From: a virus
DNA length: 31,048 bases
Virus record (IMG/VR): IMGVR_UViG_3300010149_000082
Coordinates: 1-31,048 of that record
Strand: one strand, 5' to 3'
The notes beneath the pieces were generated by a model. The model ran no database searches. It was not told the origin of the DNA and was given only the letters and a program-made list of their open reading frames with translations. The translations under genes and the position numbers were made by a program. Each line of letters opens with the position of its first letter. Position 1 is the first letter of the stretch. This document shows positions 4,001 through 26,619 of this stretch, piece after piece.

Positions 4001-4476
4001 TTGGTAAAGAAGAAGGACAGAAGTTTGCTAAAAACTTGCGGATGTTAGCGCAAATTTTAGATCGTGGGGTACGAAGAGGATCCAGAAGTCCTATGTCTCA
4101 AGGCCCAGCAGCTAACCAGACAATAGATGATTTTTTACAAGAAATGTCATTTTTGCAGAGAATTTTTATTGCTCCTCTGACGCAAACAGGTCGTCGAATT
4201 ACTGCCCTAAGTATGGGATATCGCGATCAAGCGAAAAGTGATCTATTAGAAGTTCTAGCTGATCCAACTAAACTTGACATACTTCTTAAAAACAGAGCAG
4301 ATCAAATTTCTCGTCGAGATTTTTACAAGTTTCTTGGCGCGTTAGCCGTAACGAGAGAAGTAGATATCGGCACTGAAACTAGTGAAGATACTTATGACAG
4401 AGCTATAAAAGGATTGCAAGGGCCAGTAGAAGGTATCGCTGACCTATTCTCAAGGATGTTTGACGATGAAGATTAA
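1075..4476 (+). CDS. Large putative internal virion/ejection protein (1133 aa)
   Basis: This is the largest gene in the window. The protein has an acidic N-terminal part, then a Gly/Ala-rich hydrophobic region at residues 256-372 with two candidate membrane-spanning stretches near 306-326 and 343-364, then about 700 residues rich in Glu, Gln, Lys and Leu that look helical or coiled. Long helical proteins with an internal membrane-active segment are typical of phage ejection or internal core proteins, but I see no lysozyme, peptidase or other enzyme motif. It is coupled to the gene before it by ATGA and overlaps the one after it by 11 bases. The virion role is inferred from size, composition and context. 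Confidence 0.55.
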   Translation: MSTNPSIKVLDDYLKTPEFDAFKTGVIEGGVGDFTLGEIFENDPIRLNAYLEAEYLQQQAERGDEQALALVDDQDREITNAVNTYLRRYLPLDDVEQTRLSLDTEPLETVAEPQPRRRLFPARMGATAPVQLPVKEDATDYSRFTESILNEEERQKLASFGVDPDVIYQGDQNFYEKYMEGQFPTGSIDKDSPWRVKAFFFPINMTPFEAEKLLEQESPNAEFRYINPRDKGMGLAIRDESTNGRFVPLRPQFGLEAGTEGLITGLGQEMGALVTEAVGLKGLGKLIGEGVEQTTLSRKAGRGAGTVALAGLSAGMGRFAQLAYGNAQGINDISIERAFEDAGLAAVLGGAGAAVVGTAMATVGQVWKTITGSNIPQPVIDRLQASIAKLKTKGTGEEFTSQELAERTRQAALAVGDSVAQYRPTAGELTQDDFLKSLEIELFSQLSTTAKGRQAYEDIVNNNANAAFNFWQELTENAPELKGISYTDFREFLKKQQDDYAAQAAEAAKLKIRDIEEGAKLDEVLPEQPPEQMLTIDELGSTFTRDQESGSLIFKRNSPEFLAQSDEAYNAAKDSVAREIETLSGLKYDRKTDSATQIIPAFREAFNAGEDKDAIMRTLGEVEASDVIKSMIPMRDGVSILKQLLGVTVDDQGKFLKQADLDFGQLAGMQNALNSLFMESSDRGVREVAMKLRDAVEAQIDDLITFQARKQLAAEGVEAPTPKVLGEKVQEIAGPLIEAQAGLRQANQAIERRFIRELVDKEPSEIADFVLSSSPKQITQLLDQIYQLPDSIVRMQNLRQLVVENMRKSMGDLPLAEQNKTYAKFLEKNADQLEALFPEAQFLKLTNFQEVQEQALKDIAETAETLAELEKKLGKPPAEFISDFLLQGRSARLTGAAEMSRREFGELIKQNPELQPYVTALTRDFFQKNFETTRTTGDTMFSGGLDVNRFIDFVQSGVRSGQEGSSELGQIFSPLLGKEEGQKFAKNLRMLAQILDRGVRRGSRSPMSQGPAANQTIDDFLQEMSFLQRIFIAPLTQTGRRITALSMGYRDQAKSDLLEVLADPTKLDILLKNRADQISRRDFYKFLGALAVTREVDIGTETSEDTYDRAIKGLQGPVEGIADLFSRMFDDED

Positions 4477-5899
4477 GATATTTGAGCCACCGTTACCTTC
4501 ATTAGACGTTGAGCAAATGTCCAACGGCGGCGAAGTCGAACCTGCTAAAATGTTCGGTGGCGGCAATATTGGTAATTTTAGTGTCAATATCGACCCTGAA
4601 CGTGTTGCGGAGTATATGGCGAACAATCCTGTAGTTGCCGATACAGTTGGTCAAGCTGCTCCGCAGCGAGTAGTTGCTTCTCCTACTCCGGAAGAAGTAG
4701 ATGCGTTTAATTATATGTACGGCCCTTCAGCTTCTGAGGCGATGGGCTTTAATGTTGAACAGGGTGCATACGGTAACGATTACGCTCAATACGATCGCGG
4801 GGATTACGTTCGTTCTACAGATCCGGCAGCTGCAGCAGAAAGAGCTGCAGAGGCAGAACGTCGACGCCAAGAACGCCAAGCGCAACGAGAAGCGGATGCA
4901 GCTGCAGAAGCAGAAGCAGAAGCTGCTAGAGTTGCTGCTGCAGAAGCTGAATTTGCTAGACGAATATCTGCAGGCGAGTTAACTGCTCAAGAAATTCAAG
5001 ATCTTATTGCAGGTGGGGTGCTTACCGAAGATCAAGTTCTTGCAATTATTCAAAACTATCAACTTAGCGAAGATCAATTAGCTCAGTTATATACTCAAGG
5101 GTTGCTTACTCAAGAACAGATTTTAGAACTCGTCGAAGGCGAAGTTGCTGATCAAATGTCAGAGTCAGAGGGTTCTGCAGACGGTATCGCATCTGGCTTA
5201 ACCGAAGATCAAATTAATGAGTTAATTGCCCAAGGGTTAGCTGACCAAGATATGACGGGGTATGCAACTACCGAAGATATTACTGGGCTAGAAAATCTTT
5301 TCCAAAACTACCTTACTGCTGACCAGCTAGAAGGTTACGTTACTGCTGATCAGTTAGCAGAAGCGACCGATTATGATACGACTATTCAAGCATTAACAGA
5401 TCAGCTAGGTGAGCTTGAAACAAAATACCAAGACGTTACTTCTCAGTACGAAGCTGACGCAGTTAACCAACAAATCTCTGATACAAAAGACGAGCTGAAT
5501 AACTATTTTGCAGCATCTGCGCCTAGCGGCCCACGAACAGGGTCTACGTCCCAGTTTAGTTCAGGCACTTCGTTCCTTCCAGGAGGTAGCCCGATGGCGA
5601 CCCTTATTGAAGGGCAGCGTGAAGGACAAGGCCAAGATCCATTTACATCGTATTTGAAAACATTTACACCAAGTTATAGCGAGTATAACGAACCGTTTAC
5701 TCCTGAAGAATATAACGAACGAAATCAACCCTTTACTGGCGGGATGTATAATAATCCGTTTACTGGCGGTATGTCGTATAACCCTGATAAAAAGAACATG
5801 GGCGGTCAAGTATCTAACGGTATAATGGATCTCACTAATTTCGATACGAACGTACAACCGTTTCAAAACGCCTTTCGGCCTAACGTACCAAGGAACTAA
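4466..5899 (+). CDS. Repeat-containing putative virion protein
   Basis: The ATG at 4466 is preferred over an in-frame TTG at 4460 because AAGGA ends about 9 bases upstream of it. The product is about 477 residues. After an acidic N-terminus with a GG motif (MSNGGEV), an Ala/Glu/Arg-rich helix covers roughly residues 120-170. Short imperfect repeats of the type G-x-L-T-E-D-Q-x-x follow (GVLTEDQVL, YQLSEDQLA, GLLTQEQIL, SGLTEDQIN, YLTADQLEG, YVTADQLAE), then a coiled-coil-like segment. The tail carries PFT repeats (EPFTPEEYN, QPFTGGMYN, NPFTGGMSY) and the sequence MGGQVSNGIMDL. Function is unknown; the repeats and neighbours suggest a tail-fibre-like, scaffold or internal virion role. Confidence 0.55.
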   Translation: MKIKIFEPPLPSLDVEQMSNGGEVEPAKMFGGGNIGNFSVNIDPERVAEYMANNPVVADTVGQAAPQRVVASPTPEEVDAFNYMYGPSASEAMGFNVEQGAYGNDYAQYDRGDYVRSTDPAAAAERAAEAERRRQERQAQREADAAAEAEAEAARVAAAEAEFARRISAGELTAQEIQDLIAGGVLTEDQVLAIIQNYQLSEDQLAQLYTQGLLTQEQILELVEGEVADQMSESEGSADGIASGLTEDQINELIAQGLADQDMTGYATTEDITGLENLFQNYLTADQLEGYVTADQLAEATDYDTTIQALTDQLGELETKYQDVTSQYEADAVNQQISDTKDELNNYFAASAPSGPRTGSTSQFSSGTSFLPGGSPMATLIEGQREGQGQDPFTSYLKTFTPSYSEYNEPFTPEEYNERNQPFTGGMYNNPFTGGMSYNPDKKNMGGQVSNGIMDLTNFDTNVQPFQNAFRPNVPRN

Positions 5900-22472: not shown

Positions 22473-22715
22473 ATGACATTTATCACACCAGTTAAAAAGC
22501 TAGAACAGCTTTCACCAACGCCTGAGCAAGACAAAGCACTTGTAAAGGTATTCGAACAACACGTGCTGGATAGCCAGCACCCAGACTTTGCGTATATCAC
22601 GTTTACCGACTGGGTCGTTAAAGACGTACATAAAGCAATGTACGACGATTGCATTATGGCCGCTGTACCAAATATGTGGCTAGGTATCGAAACAGACGGA
22701 TATACGCACTCATGA
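22473..22715 (+). CDS. Small phage protein of unknown function (80 aa)
   Basis: This is the first gene after P5, with GAAAGGAG 7 bases before the ATG. The product is acidic, with FTDWVVKDVHKAMYDDCIMA and an aromatic C-terminus. No domain is recognised. It overlaps the next gene as ATGA. Confidence 0.65.
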   Translation: MTFITPVKKLEQLSPTPEQDKALVKVFEQHVLDSQHPDFAYITFTDWVVKDVHKAMYDDCIMAAVPNMWLGIETDGYTHS

Positions 22716-23083
22716 GTGCGGTAATCGTAGACGACGGCACAGTAGATGTCGTCGTCGAATATGACGGTTGGCGCAAGAGATATACCCAATCATATCGAGC
22801 AATGTTCGGTAGCGAGGAGGAGTTTTTAGATGCAGCGTTTAAAGATTTTTATGACGACCAAACGGATCGGCTTGATGCAGCGTATGACTCGTTACCGCGA
22901 GATATCACGCTCTGCTACAACGACGATTGTCGTGGCTGGAAAACCCCCGACGAACATCTCGAGGGTTACGCAGTAGTTAAATGTTTGATGGGCTGTAGCG
23001 ATTACAAGGTACTCTATAAAGAGTTACCGAAAATTACGGATGCGATGTGGAGCAGGTTACAACTCGAAGCATCCGATACATGA
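22712..23083 (+). CDS. Acidic phage protein of unknown function (123 aa)
   Basis: The ATG at 22712 overlaps the preceding stop as ATGA and is preferred over an in-frame ATG 63 bases upstream, inside that gene. The product starts with a beta-like segment, MSAVIVDDGTVDVVVEYDGW, has many Asp, Tyr and Trp residues, and contains two Cys-containing segments (LCYNDDCRGW and VVKCLMGCS) that could form a metal site. No family is recognised. The structured element at 23113-23237 follows it. Confidence 0.65.
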   Translation: MSAVIVDDGTVDVVVEYDGWRKRYTQSYRAMFGSEEEFLDAAFKDFYDDQTDRLDAAYDSLPRDITLCYNDDCRGWKTPDEHLEGYAVVKCLMGCSDYKVLYKELPKITDAMWSRLQLEASDT

Positions 23084-23112
23084 TTTGTGTGGGGGACATA
23101 CGACTCAGGCGA

Positions 23113-23237
23113 CTGGTAGCGTCAGGGGGTTTTCCTCTCTCCTGCTGGAGAGTTTTACGAGAAATAGGTTCGATGAAGTGTAGACCCCCAAGGGTAGTGA
23201 TGACCTTTTGTAATCTACCAATCGAACCAACTACCAG
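23113..23237 (+). ncRNA. Candidate structured RNA element (nested stems) in a 5' leader
   Basis: This 125-base stretch inside a 181-base gap can fold as a closed multi-branch structure. The outer stem is CTGGTAG (23113-23119) with CTACCAG (23231-23237). Hairpin CTCTCC-TGCT-GGAGAG lies at 23137-23152. Stem GGTTCGAT (23167-23174) pairs with ATCGAACC (23221-23228) and encloses GTAGA/TCTAC or the alternative GGTAG/CTACC. All arms are perfect complements. It ends 27 bases before the zinc-finger start. It could be a cis-regulatory leader or a small RNA; no known class is recognised. Confidence 0.5.
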
Positions 23238-23264
23238 ATTTACTTATTTAGAAAGGAGAAATGT

Positions 23265-23438
23265 ATGAACGATTGTGTTCTATGTGGCGACGAGATCGAC
23301 GTTCAAGCGAACGGTTGGGCCGGTGGCCATAACGCGCAGCCTTTGGCTGACGGACAGTGTTGCAGTAGTTGCAACAGCCTAGTCATTATCGCTCGAATGC
23401 AGCAAGCACGAGAGTATGCAGAGGAGGCCGTATCGTGA
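23265..23438 (+). CDS. Small zinc-ribbon-like protein (57 aa)
   Basis: The ATG at 23265 has AAAGGAG upstream; an overlapping ATG at 23261 is in another frame. The product begins MNDCVLCGDEIDVQANGWAG and contains HNAQPLADGQCCSSC, so two CxxC pairs (Cys4/Cys7 and a CCxxC about 25 residues later) can bind one zinc. I recognise this as a common small phage family of unknown role. It overlaps the next gene as GTGA at 23435-23438. Confidence 0.75.
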   Translation: MNDCVLCGDEIDVQANGWAGGHNAQPLADGQCCSSCNSLVIIARMQQAREYAEEAVS

Positions 23439-25706: not shown

Positions 25707-25731
25707 AAGCCCGCCTCGAGCGGGCTTTTTT
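25707..25731 (+). terminator. Intrinsic terminator closing the replication/accessory module
   Basis: AGCCCGC (25708-25714), loop CTCGA, GCGGGCT (25720-25726), followed by a run of Ts to 25731. The stem is perfect and GC-rich. It lies 19 bases after the last gene of the module. Confidence 0.92.
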
Positions 25732-26034: not shown

Positions 26035-26619
26035 ATGAAAGAACTACAGTACACTCCCCTGACACCTGCTGATGACGGAAACGGGTACATCGACGCCGAT
26101 GGTAAGAGATGGCAACCGCTAAATCCGAAACAAAAGAAGTTCGCTCGAGAGTATCTGAAAGGCCAAAACGCTACCGAAGCAGCGGTAAAAGCAGGCTATA
26201 CGAAGAATCGAGCCGCAGCTAAACGACAAGGCAGCGTCTTACTCAACCACAACCCACTTTTGCGAAATTACCTTATAGACCAGGAAATCAAGGAGGCAGA
26301 GAGGGATAGGGTTTCCATGGAGGGCCACCTCTCCGCCCTCCACGACTTGCGTGAGGAGGCACGGGAGTCGGGGCAGATTAACGCAGCGATCACGGCAGAG
26401 ATACACCGAGGGAAGGTCGGAGGGCTTTACATCGATCGACGCGAGGTACTGACCGCGAAGATCGACATGCTCTCTAAAGATCAGCTGATCGATCGACTCG
26501 GAGCACTGATCACGAAGCGCGTACCGCAAACGATCGAGGGAGAGATTACGAATCGGCTCGGATCGACAGACGGATCGACGGATCGATCGACTGTATTAAT
26601 TGAGCGAGGGAGCGATTGA
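26035..26619 (+). CDS. terS: Terminase small subunit
   Basis: The 194-residue product carries the Terminase_2-type DNA-binding block: LNPKQKKFAREYLKGQNATE and AAVKAGYTKNRAAAKRQGSV, then LLNHNPLLRNYLIDQEIKEA, an HTH region that recognises the packaging site. A helical oligomerisation region follows, and the C-terminal 30 residues are Ser/Thr/Asp-rich (LGSTDGSTDRST) because the gene end lies inside the GATC-repeat tract. No clear ribosome binding site precedes the ATG. It is separated from the large subunit gene by about 3.7 kb, which is unusual. Packaging recognition near its own gene is typical of the family. Confidence 0.88.
   Translation: MKELQYTPLTPADDGNGYIDADGKRWQPLNPKQKKFAREYLKGQNATEAAVKAGYTKNRAAAKRQGSVLLNHNPLLRNYLIDQEIKEAERDRVSMEGHLSALHDLREEARESGQINAAITAEIHRGKVGGLYIDRREVLTAKIDMLSKDQLIDRLGALITKRVPQTIEGEITNRLGSTDGSTDRSTVLIERGSD

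Follow-up and report, generated by a model that had tools for sequence, protein, structure and literature searches.

A new family of pseudoknotted structured RNA elements at the ends of phage coding regions

One of the puzzling features of the virus genome analyzed here is a gap of 181 bases (23084-23264) that separates gene X from a small zinc-ribbon gene. What occupies it, and what does it do? The window, which is the whole stretch of DNA that was analyzed, is a 31,048-base IMG/VR virus record. A sequence-only reading had recognized this gap and placed within it, at 23113-23237, three nested sets of perfectly paired stems, proposed to be an undescribed structured RNA standing where a promoter would be expected and perhaps switching the zinc-ribbon gene. 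Our analysis indicates that the gap contains a structured RNA belonging to a phage RNA family that is new, and we regard the reality of this family as nearly certain. Its function is a matter of more graded judgment.

The window has phage-family matches for primase, helicase, thymidylate synthase and family A DNA polymerase. Among annotated DNA polymerases, the closest come from phage 023Pt_psg01 (52% identity), from DSL-LC04 and from the Pelagibacter phages HTVC027P and HTVC023P. Direct DNA similarity searches against cultured phages found nothing, and tblastn searches with the flanking proteins gave no match in cultured phages. The genes flanking the gap are as follows.

22712-23083, + strand: gene X, 123 aa, cysteine-rich; its stop codon abuts the RNA element
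23250-23258, + strand: Shine-Dalgarno sequence of the zinc-ribbon gene, AGAAAGGAG; outside the RNA element
23265-23438, + strand: zinc-ribbon gene, 57 aa; adjoins the RNA element only in clade I

The paired cysteines of gene X (CYNDDC ... CLMGC) resemble those of zinc-binding proteins, and no Pfam or PHROG family matched it. Approximately 2.5 kb downstream of the RNA element, a strong intrinsic terminator (AAGCCCGCCTCGAGCGGGCTT-TTTTG, 25707-25727) closes a run of small genes and precedes the gene for the terminase small subunit (26035-26619, Pfam Terminase_2).

Architecture of the RNA element

The window copy is roughly 150 bases on the + strand, within a family range of about 132-176 nt. A stem, P1, closes the structure; within it are the side hairpin P2 and the long arm P3-P4, to which a hairpin P5 is optionally added. 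The pseudoknot joins a strand immediately 5' of P1 to one that immediately follows P4. Its parts in the window, all on the + strand, are listed below.

23085-23237, + strand: whole structured RNA element; scores 155.8 bits with covariance model R1; about 70 viral contigs have homologues
23091-23095, + strand: pseudoknot 5' strand GGGGG, pairing with 23185-23189; compensatory changes GC/UA, GC/AU and GC/GU/AU
23106-23112, + strand: joining sequence CAGGCGA; CAGG invariant and CGA nearly so in 43 distinct sequences
GGCG of CAGGCGA with CGUC at 23120-23123, + strand: tentative stem P0; paired in 43 of 43, nearly invariant
23113-23119, + strand: P1 5' strand CTGGTAG (RNA, CUGGUAG); paired in 43 of 43 at every position, with ten different sequences
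23120-23125, + strand: joining sequence CGUCAG, nearly invariant in the 43 sequences
23130-23136, + strand: UUUUCCU with the conserved UUCC, in the segment joining P1 to P3; before P2 in some lineages and after it in others
23137-23152, + strand: P2 hairpin CUCUCC-UGCU-GGAGAG; a hairpin of unrelated sequence is found here in nearly every lineage
23159-23167, + strand: conserved joining sequence GAGAAAUAG, whose last G opens P3
23167-23174, + strand: P3 5' strand GGTTCGAT (RNA, GGUUCGAU); 8 bp, paired in 43 of 43, rich in compensatory change
23180-23184, + strand: P4 5' strand GUAGA; compensatory pairs in relatives
23185-23189, + strand: pseudoknot 3' strand CCCCC, pairing with 23091-23095; covariation and permutation test
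23190-23207, + strand: variable hairpin P5 (AAGG 23190-23193 with CCUU 23204-23207); differs in size and is missing in some lineages
23214-23218, + strand: P4 3' strand UCUAC; pairing conserved across the family
23221-23228, + strand: P3 3' strand ATCGAACC (RNA, AUCGAACC); pairing conserved across the family
23231-23237, + strand: P1 3' strand CTACCAG (RNA, CUACCAG); pairing conserved across the family

The family consensus runs, in its 5' part, [PK5']-about 10 nt-CAGGCGA-[P1]-CGUCAG-[P2 with UUCC beside it]-GAGAAAYA, and continues in its 3' part as [P3, G....(G/A)AU]-GAAGU-[P4]-[PK3']-[P5]-(U)UUCA-like-[P4']-CA-[P3']-RA-[P1'].

The three nested perfect stems of the sequence-only reading are present where it placed them, with the outer P3 strands (23167-23174 and 23221-23228) enclosing the GTAGA/TCTAC pairing, and a comparable arrangement arose in one of 3000 dinucleotide shuffles of 23113-23237 when the outer stem had to have 7 bp or more, with a span of 100 or more, and to enclose two perfect stems next to each other, one of at least 6 bp and the other of at least 8 bp. 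The proposed interval covered these stems but missed the 5' part of the element, namely CAGGCGA at 23106-23112 and the pseudoknot strand at 23091-23095. Two GGTAG units (23115-23119 and 23193-23197) and two CTACC units (23215-23219 and 23231-23235) do exist, as had been pointed out. The alternative pairing that they were thought to permit is not conserved: only the window and its near-twin L002 have the second GGTAG, and the CTACC at P4' is replaced elsewhere by CTTGCC and others.

Two features of the fold can be described more tentatively. The GGCG and CGUC segments around the 5' strand of P1 could form a 4-bp hairpin with that strand as its loop, which would make P1 itself a loop-tail pseudoknot. 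Changes compatible with this P0 pairing occur as U-G in L022 and as U-G with both sides changed in L100, and the columns are otherwise so nearly invariant that covariation cannot be judged there. The pseudoknot proper, as far as its sequences indicate, could equally form between two molecules, a distinction to which covariation is blind. A possible extra long-range pairing was observed in L043 (element at 4331-4501, minus strand), in which CTTGTATCC in the P2 loop region is perfectly complementary over 9 bases to GGATACAAG, located just ahead of P4'; the near relative L076 retains the first of these strands and lacks the second.

Homologues and comparative evidence for the fold

Searches with the zinc-ribbon protein recovered 37 viral loci, 12 of which have the element directly upstream, with compensatory change already visible. 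Searches with gene X reached more distant phages in which the element again directly follows the gene X stop codon and the next gene is different. Covariance model R1 was built solely from these zinc-ribbon- and gene X-anchored sequences, which comprise three clades of one phage group. Scans with R1 and with sequence patterns then retrieved further divergent members at E = 4e-24 to 1e-8, and a second model, R2, added one more. In total, 69 viral contigs in addition to the window, together with one contig of a metagenome-assembled genome (MAG), were counted as members, in about 13 gene backgrounds. The element occurs once per record in the seven records that were searched whole.

The search patterns demanded parts of the unpaired core (CAGGCKA, SGTCAG, GAGAAA), so that conservation of this core is in part a product of selection by the search. 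CAGGCGA was required in three pattern scans and was not used in another, and GAGAAA was a requirement in some scans and not in the gene X-anchored set. Pairing was never part of a pattern, the one exception being a scan in which the P1 sequence was set to that of the window group. Specificity was controlled with the motif CAGGCGA-N7-CGTCAGG, which newly fetched 66 loci, 65 of them devoid of the fold and one a true member.

A strict pattern found no element in bacterial and archaeal genomes. A loose pattern matched at least 118 stretches in them, and among the matches listed only L239 is real. L239 is CAJWIY010000067.1, an 8.7-kb contig of a Gammaproteobacteria MAG, belonging to the same lineage as L089 and L114. 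It is probably a phage contig binned with its host, since it shares the L089 lineage with phage loci, and its binning may hint at a marine gammaproteobacterial host. R2 detected no element in the nearest cultured relatives by DNA polymerase (023Pt_psg01 and parts of HTVC027P, HTVC023P and DSL-LC04) or in two relatives by primase.

The case for structure is based on comparison, because the single-sequence folding energy is in itself not unusual (z = -1.05 across 23100-23245; z = -0.51 across the entire gap). Across the first 22 distinct sequences, 97.3% of cells are paired in a 25-pair structure consisting of P1, P3, P4 and the pseudoknot; 12 of the 25 pairs have changed on both sides, no shuffle equaled the pairing or covariation scores, and shifting the partners by one to three columns abolishes the signal. 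P1, invariant in the first homologue set, has ten sequences in the wider family, each perfectly partnered. Among 43 distinct sequences P1 and P3 are paired in all and P4 in 29 to 43, with many compensatory changes, the P4 pairs of the window and its relatives including GUAGA/UCUAC, GCAAG/CUUGC, GCGCU/AGCGC and CGG/CCG. A tree-aware test was applied to the same 43 sequences, with the register fixed by anchors without fitting and a tree built from them. Its null, in which the changes of each column were scattered over the tree in 60 alignments, makes it a simplified relative of R-scape. Nine of 5050 column pairs reached E ≤ 0.05, and all nine lie within P1, P3 or P4. Covariation in homologues, which had been named as a check on the original proposal, has thus come out in its favor.

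The pseudoknot gave no significant pair in the single fixed register of this test, because the spacing shifts between lineages; a register-free permutation test was therefore used. When pseudoknot strands were swapped among 16 representatives, the true total of 97 matched bases compared with 66.6 ± 4.5 and was attained in none of 20,000 permutations. The pairs found in different lineages include GGUGAGG/CCUCACC, GGAGG/CCUCC, GUCCCU/AGGGAC, AGGCUUG/CAAGCCU and GGAUGGC/GCCAUCC; in some lineages the polarity of the strands is reversed, as in L118 (GUCCCU/AGGGAC). P2 and P5 are not alignable across lineages and were assessed by stem length alone; for P2 the summed longest stem was 119, compared with 88 in shuffles (maximum 100 among 300 shuffles). 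The conserved UUCC is found in 18 of 21 representatives against a shuffled mean of 6.6 and a maximum of 12, the representatives not being independent of one another. Finally, P3, P4 and the pseudoknot contain G-U pairs when the + strand is read, which would be A-C on the other strand, and these identify the + strand RNA as the folded molecule.

None of the 4227 models of Rfam 15 matched the window or 18 relatives drawn from all the main lineages at the gathering score, and the weak matches were at chance level, none of them credible. These 19 loci, together with the strong covariation, bear out the proposal of an undescribed structured RNA. ARAGORN found no tRNA or tmRNA gene in the window, so that a tRNA or tmRNA is ruled out, as the initial reading had also held for a tRNA. 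GOLLD and ROOL membership is rejected on the lack of an Rfam match and on a length of 132-176 nt, and the known classes of self-cleaving ribozyme on the lack of any match to an Rfam 15 ribozyme model. An intrinsic terminator is rejected because there is no stem with a U-run at the element, and an attC array because there is one copy per record in the seven records. The possibility that the region is coding in relatives has likewise been rejected: an invariant AUG/GUG opens unrelated reading frames of 1-44 codons (a single codon in L155), not a conserved coding sequence or leader peptide, and insertions and deletions in the element are not in multiples of three. A literature search found no description of this RNA, and an unnamed earlier listing in computational supplements is possible. 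The element is new in sequence and structure, having no Rfam relative and a topology that we could match to no known family; its function may be of a known kind.

Genomic context and candidate functions

A stop codon precedes the element in nearly all lineages, mostly by no more than about 15 nt. In most lineages the gene concerned is on the same strand and its stop codon lies about -4 to +13 nt from the element start, and in several the stop codon overlaps the 5' pseudoknot strand. The exception is the L089/L124/L239 group, in which the upstream gene ends about 120 nt away. The upstream gene is gene X in clades I-III and elsewhere an SNF2 helicase, a small 'M..MDDM..LADEIL' protein, a coiled-coil protein or others. 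What lies downstream also depends on lineage. Some lineages have the zinc-ribbon gene there, others a gene for a 173-aa protein or an integrase; in the L145 group a new promoter and operon follow, and still other lineages have a convergent gene. A convergent orientation of the next clear gene was seen in L107/L163, L126/L120 and L118/L155/L127/L133/L162, all of which retain the core and UUCC. In L107/L163 this gene comes directly after the element with no terminator between them, and in L163 its stop codon coincides exactly with the element end. Clades II and III (L013-L026, L043, L064, L076) have an extra gene between the RNA element and the zinc-ribbon gene, indicating gene gain or loss exactly at the 3' boundary of the element. 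In L124, L154, L089 and L239 a tyrosine-integrase-like gene begins 30-60 nt after the element, which is therefore situated where an attP site might be expected.

Promoter signals (sigma-70-like only) were not enriched over shuffles within 120 nt upstream or downstream of the element, and the idea that it takes the place of a promoter consequently finds no support. No intrinsic terminator was called at the element, the longest T-run in the 60 nt downstream being 2-5. Having no promoter or terminator of its own that we could find, the element is probably cotranscribed with the upstream operon.

The position directly before the zinc-ribbon gene holds for the window and clade I; elsewhere the next gene differs, and the proposed switch controlling the zinc-ribbon gene is not supported, given that the RNA of relatives precedes unrelated or convergent genes. 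A riboswitch or leader is disfavored as the general function for the same reason, the element not being bound to one regulated gene, and no conserved alternative pairing or expression platform was found. The reading as a leader or riboswitch for the next gene, with UUUUCCUCUCU acting as an anti-Shine-Dalgarno sequence, is very improbable. In the window clade the Shine-Dalgarno sequence does lie 12 nt after P1, and TTTTCCTCTCT, as read from the sequence, could pair with AGAAAGGAGAA at 10 of 11 positions; yet the next gene differs even among close relatives (zinc ribbon, 173-aa protein or other) or is convergent with core and UUCC kept, and the alternative GGTAG/CTACC pairing is not conserved. 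Processive antitermination by an RNA acting on its own polymerase, in the manner of HK022 put or EAR, would suit an intercistronic, sequence-conserved, pseudoknotted RNA devoid of its own promoter, as well as the strong intrinsic terminator 2.5 kb downstream in the window (25707-25727). The absence of a following same-strand gene in several lineages and the single copy per record searched make it a highly doubtful explanation.

All lineages agree in their fold, in the unpaired core, in the strand and in lying at the end of a coding region. The explanation that we prefer, with a confidence somewhat short of even, is that the element is transcribed in the operon of the upstream gene and then becomes an independent noncoding RNA at or from the 3' end of the message, probably acting in trans. 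The folded RNA would probably be released from the message 3' end by host nucleases and would then act through its conserved unpaired core (CAGGCGA, CGUCAG, UUCC, GAGAAAYAG), which might bind a protein or the ribosome. UUCC could, to judge from the motif count, contact a protein or pair with the AGGA of Shine-Dalgarno sequences. Action in trans is favored over action in cis because the next gene varies by lineage and the lineages share few proteins, although a strictly cis role on the upstream message would fit the position equally well.

Such a cis-acting 3'-end element, acting on the lifetime or the 3' end of the message upstream, comes closest as a rival to a trans-acting noncoding RNA, and we consider it unlikely while giving it appreciable weight. 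It might block 3' exonucleases, form a 3' end without a classical terminator or sense ribosomes at the stop codon. The only context shared by most lineages is indeed the same-strand upstream gene ending at about -4 to +13 nt, and in L107/L163 a convergent gene comes right after the element, with no intervening terminator. Against this, an element for stability or termination would not require some 30 conserved unpaired bases, no U-run follows it, the window clade has several same-strand genes after it with their own Shine-Dalgarno sites, and in L089/L124 some 120 nt separate the element from the end of the upstream gene.

Ribozymes of similar appearance occur in phages, and a three-way junction whose pseudoknot packs against P4, an unpaired core that is conserved, variable peripheral hairpins and a placement independent of particular genes would all be in keeping with a new class of self-cleaving ribozyme, one whose cut in the operon message would fall at the element or close to it. 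This candidate is improbable, since no Rfam 15 ribozyme model matches, the topology is unlike that of HDV in that the 3' pseudoknot strand is enclosed by P3/P4, and no cleavage site is apparent. A broader reading, also unlikely but deserving more credence, is that the element is a new catalytic or RNA-protein phage machine cut from operon messages, which would cleave itself or other RNA, or take over a host machine (ribosome, RNA polymerase or nuclease) during infection.

The least probable explanation, to which we give very little credence, is that the element is a folded DNA site such as an attC-like recombination site or a replication origin, and not an RNA. Its location after stop codons is that of attC sites, and an integrase lies within about 60 nt in L124/L154/L089/L239. 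However, the G-U pairs are on one strand only, there is a pseudoknot, each record has one copy without arrays, and no integrase is directly beside the element in the other lineages listed.

Most element-bearing lineages have few proteins in common, and the spread of the element among such phages suggests that it gives a general benefit in infection. Well-supported new classes of structured RNA are uncommon, and most phage examples are without known function. With a fold that can be tested, a pseudoknot, a conserved core and natural variants from about 13 gene backgrounds, this element is immediately accessible to in vitro probing, cleavage tests and pull-downs.

Comparison with known systems

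Integron attC sites are also folded elements directly after a stop codon. The phage element differs from them in its single copy, its RNA-type G-U pairs and its pseudoknot, and no gene-cassette array was seen. The antitermination RNAs EAR and HK022 put are intercistronic or leader RNAs of conserved sequence, as is the element, and EAR shares with it a pseudoknot; in contrast to both, the element often has no same-strand gene after it, and it has no sequence or Rfam match to them. The packaging RNA of phi29 is a phage RNA with a three-way junction and loop pairing between molecules. It resembles the element in size, in the three-way junction and in possible intermolecular loop pairing, whereas the element has no Rfam match and a different context.

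GOLLD and ROOL are likewise structured, pseudoknotted phage noncoding RNAs of unknown function, found mainly through comparative genomics and metagenomes; GOLLD members are often more than 800 nt, and both GOLLD and ROOL are located near tRNA islands and form RNA cages (PMC12286853, PMC2864571). The element, in contrast, is about 150 nt, follows a stop codon, has no tRNA in the window and has no Rfam match. A structured RNA directly downstream of a gene is in an unusual place for bacteria, and the nearest parallels in position are the L17 downstream element (RF01708), which follows genes for ribosomal protein L17, and other bacterial 3'-UTR RNAs (PMC2864571). Unlike the L17 downstream element, the new family follows unrelated genes, and it does so in phages.
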